Of a DNA stretch of 32,001 nt, positions 1 through 30,304 are shown piece by piece (within the stretch, counting starts at the first letter, position 1; each line of letters begins with the position of its first letter). The notes beneath the pieces are model-generated. The model was not told the DNA's origin and did no database searches. It worked only from the letters and a program-made list of their open reading frames with translations. The position numbers were made by a program, and so were the translations under genes. The DNA comes from Mariprofundaceae bacterium. Lineage in GTDB: Bacteria; Pseudomonadota; Zetaproteobacteria; Mariprofundales; Mariprofundaceae. The stretch lies in contig JAUZQZ010000063.1 of the NCBI GenBank assembly GCA_030950745.1, positions 1 to 32,001 on the forward strand, given 5' to 3'.

Positions 1-112
1 GCGGCAATCGGCTTCCCCACTTCGGCCCATTTCCGAGCTGGAATTTCGGTCCATGGAACCACCATGCACCTCATTCCACCCCGAAAATGGACTCAAAGTG
101 GGATTGCCGCTC
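1..112. repeat. Imperfect long inverted repeat at the window edge
   Basis: GCGGCAATC (1-9) vs GATTGCCGC (104-112); CCCACTT (17-23) vs AAGTGGG (97-103); CCATTTCCGAGCTGGAAT (27-44) vs reverse complement of 73-90 (15/18). May extend beyond the window. Confidence 0.5.
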
Positions 113-176
113 ATCCACCCAGAGTTTTGCAAGTGGCTCAAGTTGTACGCCGCTTGTTTTTCGGAAATAAGAGAAT

Positions 177-1538
177 TCACGCAGCCTGATTGCCAAGCCA
201 TCCTTCAACCAGTTCACGCATTTCAGCCATCCGGGATTTGTCGGGAGCTTCGAAACGCAGCACCAGCGAGGGTTGGGTGTTGGAGGCGCGCAGCAAAGCC
301 CATCCATCACCAAATTCCAGCCGCATACCGTCCACATCAATGATGCGATAGCCCAGCGAGGCGAAGTGTGTCTTGGCTTCTTCCACCAGATCAAACTTGC
401 GGTCATCCGGGCAATCCACCCGGATTTCCGGCGTGGTAACGGAATCGGGGATATCCGAAAGCATGTGTGAGAGTGGGCTGTTCTGGCTGGCCACTGCTTG
501 CATGATGCGCGCACCGGCATATACGGCATCGTCAAATCCGAAGAAACGGTCGGCAAAGAACATGTGGCCACTCATTTCACCGGCCAGCAATGCACCGGTC
601 TCCTTCATCTTGGCCTTGATCGGGGAATGGCCCGTGCGCCACATGATGGGGTTCCCGCCATGCGCGGCAATATCGTCATACATATGCCGGGAGCATTTGA
701 CTTCAGAGATAATGGTTGCGCCGGGATGTTGCTTAAGCAGGTGGCGGGAGAGTAGCAGGAGCAGCATGTCGCCATAAATAATACGGCCCTGTTCATCGAC
801 CACGCCGATACGGTCGCCGTCACCGTCAAAGGCTATCCCCAGGTCCGCACCCTGTTCTACAACGGTACGGATAATGTCCCGCATGTTTTCTGCTACGGTC
901 GGGTCGGGATGATGGTTGGGGAATGTGCCATCCGGTTCGCAGTAGAGTTCGATGACCTCGCAGCCCAGATCACGGTAAATCGGTCCGGCAAGTATGCCTG
1001 ACGGACCGTTTCCCGCATCAATTACCACCTTGAGTGGCCGGGCCAGCGTACAATCGGATGCCACGAAAGCCTTGTAATCGCCGTGGATATGCGCCTCGGT
1101 TGTTTTGCCGCGCTGTGGCGCCCTGGCGGGCGGGGACAGAATCAGGGATTTGATACGTTGAATGTCCTCACCATGCAGACTATCTCGATCCCGCATCATC
1201 TTGAAACCATTGTAATCAGCGGGATTATGGCTAGCTGTAATCTGGATGCAGCCTGCGCCATCCAGATGAAATACCCCGTAATAGGCAAGCGGGGTCGGAC
1301 CCATACCGATATCCATGACATTCCTGCCACCATCACGTACACCCTCAATTACAGCTGCCATCAGCGAAGGGCCGGACAGGCGTACATCCCGCCCGACAAT
1401 CACCGGGCGCGTTTCATCTTCTGGCAGCAGCGCGGTGTAGGCCAGCCCCAGCCGGTAAGCGATGTCATCAGTAATTTCGCTTCCGACGATACCCCGGATA
1501 TCGTATTCGCGGAAGGTGTGATGTGGGAATCTCTGCAT
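177..1538 (-). CDS. Phosphomannomutase/phosphoglucomutase
   Basis: 453 aa ORF; EYDIRGIVG start, phosphoserine loop TASHNP, metal loop DGDGDR, C-terminal RASNTQP typical of alpha-D-phosphohexomutases. Confidence 0.93.
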   Translation of the reverse strand: MQRFPHHTFREYDIRGIVGSEITDDIAYRLGLAYTALLPEDETRPVIVGRDVRLSGPSLMAAVIEGVRDGGRNVMDIGMGPTPLAYYGVFHLDGAGCIQITASHNPADYNGFKMMRDRDSLHGEDIQRIKSLILSPPARAPQRGKTTEAHIHGDYKAFVASDCTLARPLKVVIDAGNGPSGILAGPIYRDLGCEVIELYCEPDGTFPNHHPDPTVAENMRDIIRTVVEQGADLGIAFDGDGDRIGVVDEQGRIIYGDMLLLLLSRHLLKQHPGATIISEVKCSRHMYDDIAAHGGNPIMWRTGHSPIKAKMKETGALLAGEMSGHMFFADRFFGFDDAVYAGARIMQAVASQNSPLSHMLSDIPDSVTTPEIRVDCPDDRKFDLVEEAKTHFASLGYRIIDVDGMRLEFGDGWALLRASNTQPSLVLRFEAPDKSRMAEMRELVEGWLGNQAA

Positions 1539-27204: not shown

Positions 27205-28790
27205 GTACTTTCTTCCTCATTATTTTCATTGGTATTTTGAGTTTCTTTAGCGGCCGGTTTCGTTTCAGACTTACCCGCTGTTTCAGCCTTGTCAGCAGAG
27301 GCTGCTTTGTGCTGTTGCTTTGCTCTGGAACGGCGAGCCGCACGCTCGGCCTGCTCCCGTGCCAGACGGTTATCGCGGGCCCCACTTCTGATCTTGGAAA
27401 TTCGGGCAAATTCCTGTTCCTTCTCAATTTTTGCAACCTGACCCTTGGCATAACGAAAATAATGTACCAACGGGATATGCGAGGGGCATACATAGCTGCA
27501 GCAGCCACACTCAATGCAATCAAATAAATCGTATTCCTGGCCACGGTCAAACTGGTCGTTGCGGCAGTGCCATGCCAGTTCATTGGGCACCAGTCCCGAC
27601 GGGCATACTTCAACGCAGTGGCCGCAGCGAATGCAGGGCTCTTCCACGGCTTGCTCGCTGTAAAAAGTGTCCCGTTTCATGGCCAGCAGACCATTGGTCG
27701 ATTTTACCACCGGCACATCCAGTTTCGACAGGCGTTCACCCATCATCGGGCCACCGTGAATCACATGCACGTCATCCATGTCATGTAAGCCGTGCCGGGC
27801 AAACAGGAAAGGGACGGGTGTTCCAATACGGGCGCATACATTTCCCGGTTGAGGTACGGCATCACCGCTCACCGTTATGATTCTCTCGGTCAAAGAGCGG
27901 CCCAGACATACGGCATTATGGACGGCATTGGCGGTGCCGACATTCTGGCAAAGCAGGCCAATATGAAGCGGTAATCGTCCTGCCGGGATTTCACGGCCCG
28001 TCAGCGCATAAATCAGTTGTTTTTCACTTCCCTGCGGGTAACGGGTTGGCAATACGCGGACCTCGATGTTACAGGTATCGATTCCGTGCATTTCGGTTAG
28101 AGCTTTGCGTATGCCTTCCACGGCATCTAATTTGTTGTCCTCAATGGCGATGATGCCATGTTTTGCGTTCACCGCATGCATGATGATGTCCATACCACGA
28201 AGAATTTCCTCCGATTTTTCCAGCATCAGGCGGTGATCGTTGGTAAGGTATGGCTCACACTCAATGCCATTAAGAATGACCGTGTCAATCGGATTACGTT
28301 GGTCTCTGACCATCTTGATAAAGCTGGGAAACACCGCACCGCCCAAACCCACGATGCCGCATATGCGAATGCGTTCGCGGATGGTGGATGGTTCTGTATT
28401 ACGATAATCCGGCATCGGTTCGAGGCTCTCGTCCGGGGTATCCTTGCCATCAGGTTCAATAAAGATGCATGGTCGTCCCATGCCGGAGGGGTGCGGTATG
28501 GGGTGCTCTTCAATCTTGACGACTTTGCCGGAAGAGGAAGCATGGATAGAAGCGGATACGTAACCCTGTGACTTGGCGATCTTCTGCCCAAGCAGTACGG
28601 AATCACCTACGTCCACCAGTGGCGTGCATGTTTCACCGATATGCTGTTTGAGCGGCAGAATTAGCACCGGCGGCAATGGACACTGACTAATCGGTGAGGT
28701 GGCTGTGATCTTGTGCTCCGGCGGATACATGCCACCGGGAAATGTTCCAGGTGTTGTCGGCTTCAGGTGCTCAAGCAACTTACGCAGCAT
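27201..28790 (-). CDS. rnfC: Electron transport complex subunit RnfC/RsxC
   Basis: [41 protein letters not shown], two CxxCxxC clusters ([24 protein letters not shown]), Ala/Lys-rich tail. Confidence 0.96.
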
Positions 28791-29346
28791 GTTTATTCCC
28801 GGTTTCTATCTTTTTATGGGTTCCTGGCGCTGACCATGTCCACTCCTCCAGAACCTCGGGTTTGAGTACCATATCGATGCAATTTACAGGGCAGGGTTCC
28901 ACGCACAAGGTACAACCCGTGCAATGATCCTCGATCACCGTATGATACTGTTTCGGCGCACCGATAATGGCATCTACCGGGCAGGCCTTGATGCACAGCG
29001 TGCAGCCGATGCATTCATCCTCACGGATAAAGGCCAGCATGGGCGGCGCGGGTTCTTCTTCAACCTGTTTGGGTTCTACGCCCATCAAATCCGCAATGGC
29101 CAGCATGGCGCGCTCACCGCCGGGAACGCAATGATTCACATCTGCTTCACCCCGCGTTACGGCCTCGGCATAGGGTTTGCAACCGGGATAGCCACATTGA
29201 CCGCACTGGGTCTGGGGCAGTATGGCATCAATCTTACCCACCATGGGGTCGCCCTCGACATGGAAGACGCGTGAGGCAATCGCCAGCACGATACCTGCAG
29301 CCAGCGCCACGCCTCCCAAACTCAATATTGCTGCCAGAATACCCAT
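28780..29346 (-). CDS. rnfB: Electron transport complex subunit RnfB/RsxB
   Basis: N-terminal [59 protein letters not shown]. Confidence 0.96.
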
Positions 29347-29359
29347 TGCCGGGGATTAA

Positions 29360-29625
29360 CCCTGTCCTTTACACACAAGTCGCGCCACAGCGAGTTGCCC
29401 GGTGGTCATACGCAAGGCGCACTCTCGCAGCAAGGGTTGTTCCCTTGCAAGAGAGTGCAACGAAGACAGAGGGCCGCCTGGCGGCTCGTCCGAAGGGAAC
29501 CCTTGCACACGGGCCATACCGGCGTTGCGGCGCTTGCCAATGGAATAACCATTATCTGCGTACCTCGCCTTGGTCTGACCCGTGTGCCAGGGTTCGGCGA
29601 CATGACTTGCGTGTAAAGGACAGGG
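29360..29625. mobile_element. MITE-like nested inverted-repeat element between rnfA and rnfB
   Basis: Outer inverted repeat 29360-29381 CCCTGTCCTTTACACACAAGTC vs 29604-29625 GACTTGCGTGTAAAGGACAGGG (21/22); inner inverted repeat 29497-29513 vs 29579-29595 (16/17); hairpins 29419-29458 and 29473-29485; no credible ORF. Confidence 0.75.
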
Positions 29626-29722
29626 CTAACCTCCTGGAATCCGTTAACAGTAGAAAAACGGTGTAAATGTTGTGCTTTTAATCAAACTGAATAACGTGTG
29701 AAATTGAATAAATGGTCTGGAC

Positions 29723-30304
29723 TCAGGTTTTGACCAGTCCGGAGAATCCCATGAAGGCCAAACTCATCAAGCCTGCCGTAATCAATGATACAGCCGACCC
29801 CTTGAAGGCTGCCGGCACGGGTGCTTTATCGATACGCTCCCTCAAACCTGCGAACAGCACCAGCACCAGCGCGAATCCAAGTGCGGACCCGAACCCGTAC
29901 AGTGCTGATGTCATAAAGGTCTGCTCTTTCTGCACATTGAGCAGCGCCACACCGAGTACGGCACAGTTGGTGGTAATCAGTGGCAGAAAAATTCCCAGCG
30001 CCTGATACAGCACCGGACTGGATTTGTGGATCATCATCTCGATGAATTGTACCAGTACAGCGATAATCAGGATGAAGAAAATAGTTTGCAGATACAGCAA
30101 ATCATACGGAATCAGAATATACTGCTGTACCAGCCATGTTGTGGTAGAAGCCAGTGTCATCACGAACAACACAGCCAGTGACATGCCTGCCGCTGTTTCC
30201 AGTTTTCCCGAAACGCCGAGAAACGGGCAGATGCCAAGGAATTTGGTGAGGACGAAATTATTTACCAGTACGGCGGACAGCAGAATCAATGCAAATTCAC
30301 TCAT
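29723..30304 (-). CDS. rnfA: Electron transport complex subunit RnfA/RsxA
   Basis: [56 protein letters not shown]. Confidence 0.96.

Follow-up and report, generated by a model that had tools for sequence, protein, structure and literature searches.

The 376-bp spacer between rnfA and rnfB in the window (the whole 32,001-nucleotide stretch of Mariprofundaceae DNA analysed here) contains a discrete 272-bp element that is very probably a TA-inserting MITE, mobilized in trans, with a fixed two-module interior behind variable ends, which landed in the leader of rnfB. The evidence supports both its mobility and its TA target. The original prediction had called the spacing anomalous, and relatives confirm this: in 29 with adjacent rnfA and rnfB genes (20 from the same family) the gap is 2–139 nt, and the element is absent from all 29. 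The 139-nt gap (L101) has unrelated sequence, while the 83-nt gap of L082 (genome G011; RnfA identity 93%) resembles the window flanks. The window element is short, non-coding and dispersed, with terminal inverted repeats and an empty site, all features of a MITE. The earlier suggestion of a non-autonomous mobile element is therefore upheld by dispersed copies, empty sites, the TA target and sister-subfamily ends that match IS630 or IS5 insertion sequences (ISs).

A unit of ~266 bp with a 22-bp outer and a 17-bp inner inverted repeat had been proposed. The unit is real and both repeats are in the right place, but the true limits are 29357–29628 and the repeat lengths differ (Table 1). The terminal inverted repeats are ~25 bp with two differences between them; the outer repeat extends weakly past the TA to 37 nt at 84% identity (29345–29381/29604–29640), an extension that is probably due to chance. 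The inner repeat is 24 nt at 88% (29497–29520/29572–29595). The top 24-nt inverted-repeat window scored 22/24, whereas none of 200 first-order Markov shuffles exceeded 20, and folding of the two strands gave z = -9.9 and -10.4, with none of 200 shuffles equally stable. The described GCACTCTC/GAGAGTGC hairpin with GCAAGGG/CCCTTGC was found in its place. The GCCGCC-T-GGCGGC palindrome, on the other hand, is not kept in other copies, and its bases pair instead with the 5' side of hairpin 1. A convincing ORF had been reported as lacking, and no ORF of the element matched Pfam. Finally, the proposed TAAC duplication does not hold: in the left copy TA is followed by the start of the terminal repeat, and in the right copy by flank. 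The target duplication would be TA, which is present at both edges of most family copies, some edges being without TA on one side.

Table 1. Features of the element and of the surrounding rnf genes (positions in the window; R1 and R2 are the models described in the text).
Feature	Position	Strand	Basis
Complete 272-bp element from TA to TA, a subfamily I member in the two-hairpin MITE family	29357..29628	.	Terminal repeats; TA in sister copies; R2 match
Left terminal inverted repeat, TA-ACCCTGTCCTTTACACACAAGTC	29357..29381	+	
Hairpin 1, holds module 1	29390..29489	+	Consensus structure, compensatory changes
Conserved 60-nt module 1 (GCAAGGCGC...GCAACG, apex CAAGGGTTGTTCCCTTG)	29408..29467	+	R1 E 3.8e-15 (training-set member); same place in other end types
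Central mini-hairpin CC-GAA-GG	29490..29496	+	
Hairpin 2, formed by the inner 24-nt inverted repeat; holds module 2, oriented oppositely	29497..29595	-	Compensatory changes
Conserved 60-nt module 2 (CCAAGGCGAGG...GCAACGCCGG)	29518..29577	-	R1 E 4.5e-14 (training-set member)
Right terminal inverted repeat (minus-strand reading: TA-GCCCTGTCCTTTACACGCAAGTC)	29604..29628	-	
AGGAGG, predicted original rnfB ribosome-binding site	29630..29635	-	Sequence; aligns with L082 GGAGG; folding with and without element
rnfB (188 aa)	28780..29346	-	Fe-S and 4Fe-4S Pfam domains; relatives' homology mostly from residues 1-3
rnfA (193 aa), upstream of the insertion	29723..30304	-	PF02508; relatives

Copies of the element were sought in its own genome and in relatives. 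The BLASTN search of 29340–29650 that had been recommended returned 19 dispersed rows from the 1.89-Mb genome, with copies and fragments on other contigs at 79–88% identity (closest sister 88%). A full-length covariance model built from 13 copies (R2) matched the whole window element (E 9e-48, the window copy itself being inside the model) and about 20 places in the same genome, two of which (on contigs C8 and C81) seem to be one place assembled twice. Members matched by R2 were spread over 19 of 61 genomes and, of 36 sampled genera, 13; one genome from another family (G046) had about 20 copies. The window belongs to the class currently named Mariprofundia (Zetaproteobacteria), which has an iron-oxidizing lifestyle. 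A second subfamily (II), whose ends are TAGTGTCCTGTCCCGTARA and whose length hardly departs from 268 bp, is found in the window's own genome and in a related zetaproteobacterial MAG (G005). Own-genome copies of the window's subfamily are 12–21% diverged and so are possibly fossils; the window copy is an old, single-locus insertion at rnf. Copies in genome G232 are 97–98% identical at different loci, which shows recent spread.

The 2.7-Mb one-contig genome of G232 (C1; L462–L471) has at least 18 module matches and three end types. In six contigs of the deep-sea MAG G005 (C2, C26, C46, C47, C76 and C96; L052, L065, L075, L077), the first base lies exactly 90 bp into an element, at a hairpin apex, and the 90-bp ends of C2 and C26 are identical, suggesting recent copies. 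The elements break short-read assemblies.

The overall fold is a long outer stem leading to a pair of large hairpins, which are separated by a tiny CCGAAGG hairpin. In most subfamilies the interior comprises two ~60-nt modules in inverted order flanking a CCC-GNA-GGG mini-hairpin, and the element totals usually 262–286 bp. Each module reads CAAGGCG, stem, upper internal loop (GCRG/CAAG), apical stem (often CAATGG...CCATTG) and GCAACGC, with AAG/AAC as its lower internal loop. In the alignment of the 13 full copies, the share of paired cells is 90.7%, versus 77.6% in shuffled alignments, and 133 cells carry double changes, versus 41.8 in shuffled alignments (0/500); double changes are present at 46 of 79 pairs. 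With the structure shifted by 1–3 columns, no more than 22 such pairs and 41 such cells remained. Because the structure comes from this very alignment, it has an advantage over its shifted versions, but one too small for the difference observed. The proposed covariation check therefore found strong compensatory changes, and these data support a conserved secondary structure in the element.

The same interior was also detected behind unrelated ends. Model R1, built from subfamilies I–III only, identified one or both modules in nearly all of 26 elements with other ends (L221 gave no match), at positions ~51–110 (+) and ~158–217 (-) and with E-values down to 6e-16. In all, the interior recurs behind about eight end types, with up to three in one genome. 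Copies in G232 with other ends match L462 over hairpin 1 only (79–83%), whereas copies with the same ends are 92–98% identical to it across the whole element. At E<=1e-6, R1 matched 55 of 299 Pseudomonadota genomes and 35 of 154 genera, with about 32 occurrences of the module in Acidovorax sp. A1169. Acidovorax, Hydrogenophaga and Aquisalimonas have a shorter form with one module, about 166 bp long and bounded by subfamily II ends, and two-module forms with these ends were found in MAGs labelled Verrucomicrobiota, possibly through mis-binning (L264, L274). Because it recurs across bacterial groups behind unrelated ends, the interior seems to be the preserved part, and because it is fixed while subfamily ends differ, it appears to be kept independently of the transposase used. 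Its retention is most simply explained by selection. We consider it quite possible, if a little short of an even bet, that a conserved two-hairpin cassette, by joining the ends of unrelated ISs, has become widespread in Pseudomonadota and apparently in other phyla. Selection would then act on the cassette, not on the ends, and the fold would have a function at the DNA or RNA level that makes the cassette a generic, transposase-independent parasite scaffold.

The ends were also compared with those of ISs. Subfamily I, to which the window copy belongs, has ends TAGCCCTGYCCTTTACAC; subfamily II, TAGTGTCCTGTCCCGTA; and subfamily III, found on plasmids of Azotobacter, Pseudomonas and Halomonas (L028, L029, L047), TAGGGYCTGTTGACGTTT. 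Subfamilies IV, V and VI end in TATACCCAARCYACCTCAAGATGC, TAATACCTTCATAAATAAAGCC and TAAGGAAGCTCTGAACAAGTC, and further ends in G232 are TTAGAGCCTGTCTCATAAAAT and TAGGAGCCTGTCGGACTTAA. Beside a subfamily I fragment on own-genome contig C3 lies a repeat (L007, 1–166) whose ends, GGAGTCTGTCGGACTTAG, are near the G232 ends TAGGAGCCTGTCGGACTTAA. Subfamily II shares TAGTGTCCTGTCCC with two ISs of 1163–1165 bp whose transposases match IS630 (NF033545; L327, 251 bits; L329, 269 bits), and subfamily III shares TAGGG(G/T/C)CTGTTGACGTTT with an 862-bp Aeromonas IS encoding an IS5-family transposase (NF033580, 268 bits). The hairpin module was not seen in any of these three ISs. For the window's own ends, TAGCCCTGYCCTTTACAC, no IS was found: a terminal-repeat scan of its genome for an autonomous partner returned known copies only, and neither the IS630 loci of the tested element-bearing genomes nor the IS630-like (DDE_3) loci of relatives have matching ends. 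BLAST of the window element against plasmids and phages gave weak matches only, one of which led to subfamily III, and E. coli genomes had no match to a subfamily III element. An IS256 origin, raised by TTTACAC in the ends, was rejected, as PF00872 (Transposase_mut) is absent from the genome and the duplication is TA rather than 8–9 bp. An IS630-derived, RUP-like class was likewise set aside for the window copy: the IS630 end match holds for subfamily II only, and since its own ends match no IS found, the window copy is not filed as an IS630-derived MITE.

On the favoured reading, a transposase supplied in trans by an IS with the same ends (IS630 or IS5 family for the sister subfamilies) would cut at the terminal repeats, and the element would enter a TA, often within CTAG, and duplicate it. 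On Azotobacter plasmids (L028, 3500–3840; L046, 3220–4440), IS630 ISs adjoin MITE ends at TA; their positions suggest that CTAG at the element edge may be a favoured target.

The compensatory changes would be explained just as well by a structure formed in DNA, or in part by template-switch repair, as by an RNA. A role as DNA is a serious contender, although we think it somewhat improbable: a cruciform or single-strand hairpins might aid synapsis of the ends, or a host protein might recognize them. Such a role would be consistent with the strand symmetry, with a length and geometry that stay fixed over many end types and with the sequence-specific CAAGG/CAACG loops, and d(C-GNA-G) mini-hairpins, of the kind at the centre of the element, are very stable. 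Both matching IS630 elements are without the module, however, and internal hairpins are not a known requirement of IS630 or IS5 transposases.

That a functional RNA makes up the interior and rides on different IS ends, be it a substrate of RNase III, a stabilizer of upstream mRNA or a small RNA, is rather unlikely. The compensatory changes, the conserved loop residues and the many copies inside operons would all suit an RNA, as would the UNCG-type centre on one strand: opposite the mini-hairpin the sequence reads CC-TTC-GG, a cUUCGg tetraloop if RNA, and the centre is GNA/UNC in most subfamilies. The elements show no bias in transcribed strand, however (18 vs 13), a negative orientation test by which we rejected a strand-specific RNA role for the UNCG centre; copies also lie between convergent genes; and Rfam gave no relevant match around the window element or for nine others, so that a known Rfam RNA was also discarded. 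Of the original prediction of a structured RNA, the conserved secondary structure is supported; a role for it as RNA within rnf stays a prediction. Unlikelier still is that the paired changes arose by template switching in quasi-palindromes, not by selection on the fold. Template-switch repair perfects imperfect palindromes and would also keep terminal repeats alike, but it should erase mismatched internal loops, and columns 9, 10, 55 and 56 (A) of the module alignment instead rank with its best-conserved positions, at 97% though unpaired.

We then considered what the insertion would do at rnf. In L082, a GGAGG that aligns to the window flank lies 14 nt upstream of the rnfB ATG, and the window read without the element gives CCAGGAGGT-TA-ATCCCCGGCAATG; because the L082 gap and the window flanks agree, the element appears to have inserted at a TA just past the rnfB ribosome-binding site, immediately downstream of AGGAGG. 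In the window, AGGAGG is 283 nt from the rnfB ATG and the element 10 nt from the rnfB start, so that rnfB is predicted to be parted from its ribosome site. Folding predictions gave a mean unpaired probability for the 20 nt before the ATG of 0.16 with the element and 0.48 without it, and the terminal repeat that now precedes rnfB is predicted to be fully paired. The suggestion that RnfA is uncoupled from the remaining rnf genes stays a prediction, sharpened by the displaced ribosome-binding site: rnfB and later genes would be translated more weakly and more independently, and the rnfA message would be stabilized. That the element is a domesticated regulator conserved for its effect on this operon is highly improbable, since for all its position in the rnfB leader and the displaced ribosome site, it is absent here in every relative examined and related elements lie at many unrelated genes.

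Other copies also lie close to start codons. Seven element ends are 3–10 nt before the ATG of plausible genes: rnfB and genes, named by eye from sequence, resembling cheA (C105), ubiB (C29), an SLC13 transporter (C112), gcvPB (C73), NrfD (G005 C36) and vapC (G005 C3). Among about 24 copies, the share is close to three in ten, compared with a roughly expected one in twelve intergenic sites, and the excess is suggestive, the expectation being rough. In subfamily II, one end reads AGGACACTAG-NN-ATG, a ribosome-binding spacing, and the opposite end begins TAG; ends of other subfamilies have no clear ribosome site. At L159 (G005 C3, 4687–7954), 4 nt separate a subfamily II element from the start of a PIN-domain (VapC-like) frame that may be the downstream member, as second gene, in a vapBC pair. 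Our preferred reason for the interior, drawn from few copies, is that a compact fold would let the element be tolerated inside operons with little damage, leaving no long unpaired stretch open to Rho or nucleases; in subfamily II, one end would add a TAG stop and the other an AGGA ribosome site 8–9 nt before the next ATG. The predicted full pairing of the terminal repeat and the want of a clear ribosome site in other subfamilies speak against this tolerance.

MITEs are usually seen as internal-deletion remnants of one IS, and their interiors are therefore expected to be IS-specific and drifting. In this family a single interior, fixed in geometry and with conserved loops and stems that show compensatory change, is joined to ends from two or more transposase families and to several unassigned end types, and because it recurs with different ends, its purpose is directly testable. 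For annotation, such elements matter in that they break assemblies and alter translation starts inside operons. MITEs are an ordinary kind of element; what is apparently undescribed is a conserved interior whose ends are exchangeable, with no description of a two-hairpin family in Rfam or the open literature searched. This novelty is provisional, the search having covered open papers.

Among known systems, RUP of Streptococcus pneumoniae, an IS630-Spn1 MITE, is likewise non-coding, with a TA target, a stable fold and IS630-like ends, but is 107 bp long and has one species, one end type and no described two-module interior (PMC2229807). Correia/NEMIS elements of Neisseria are also TA-flanked MITEs in transcribed regions, and RNase III cutting of their stem-loop RNA has been proposed; they differ in length (107–155 bp), in their restriction to one genus and in having a single stem (PMC2229807). 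CIR repeats of Caulobacter share two long arms and a linker, but are ~110 bp, are without terminal inverted repeats and carry a GANTC motif (PMC2229807). Chunjie of Geobacter uraniireducens, likened here by its description in a review, is a MITE of up to 235 bp within an unbroken operon, given there for a single species (PMC10969869). The IS630 (NF033545) and IS5 (NF033580) ISs have 14–20 nt ends identical or nearly identical to those of subfamilies II and III, and TA/CTAG edges, and differ in carrying a transposase in place of the hairpin modules.
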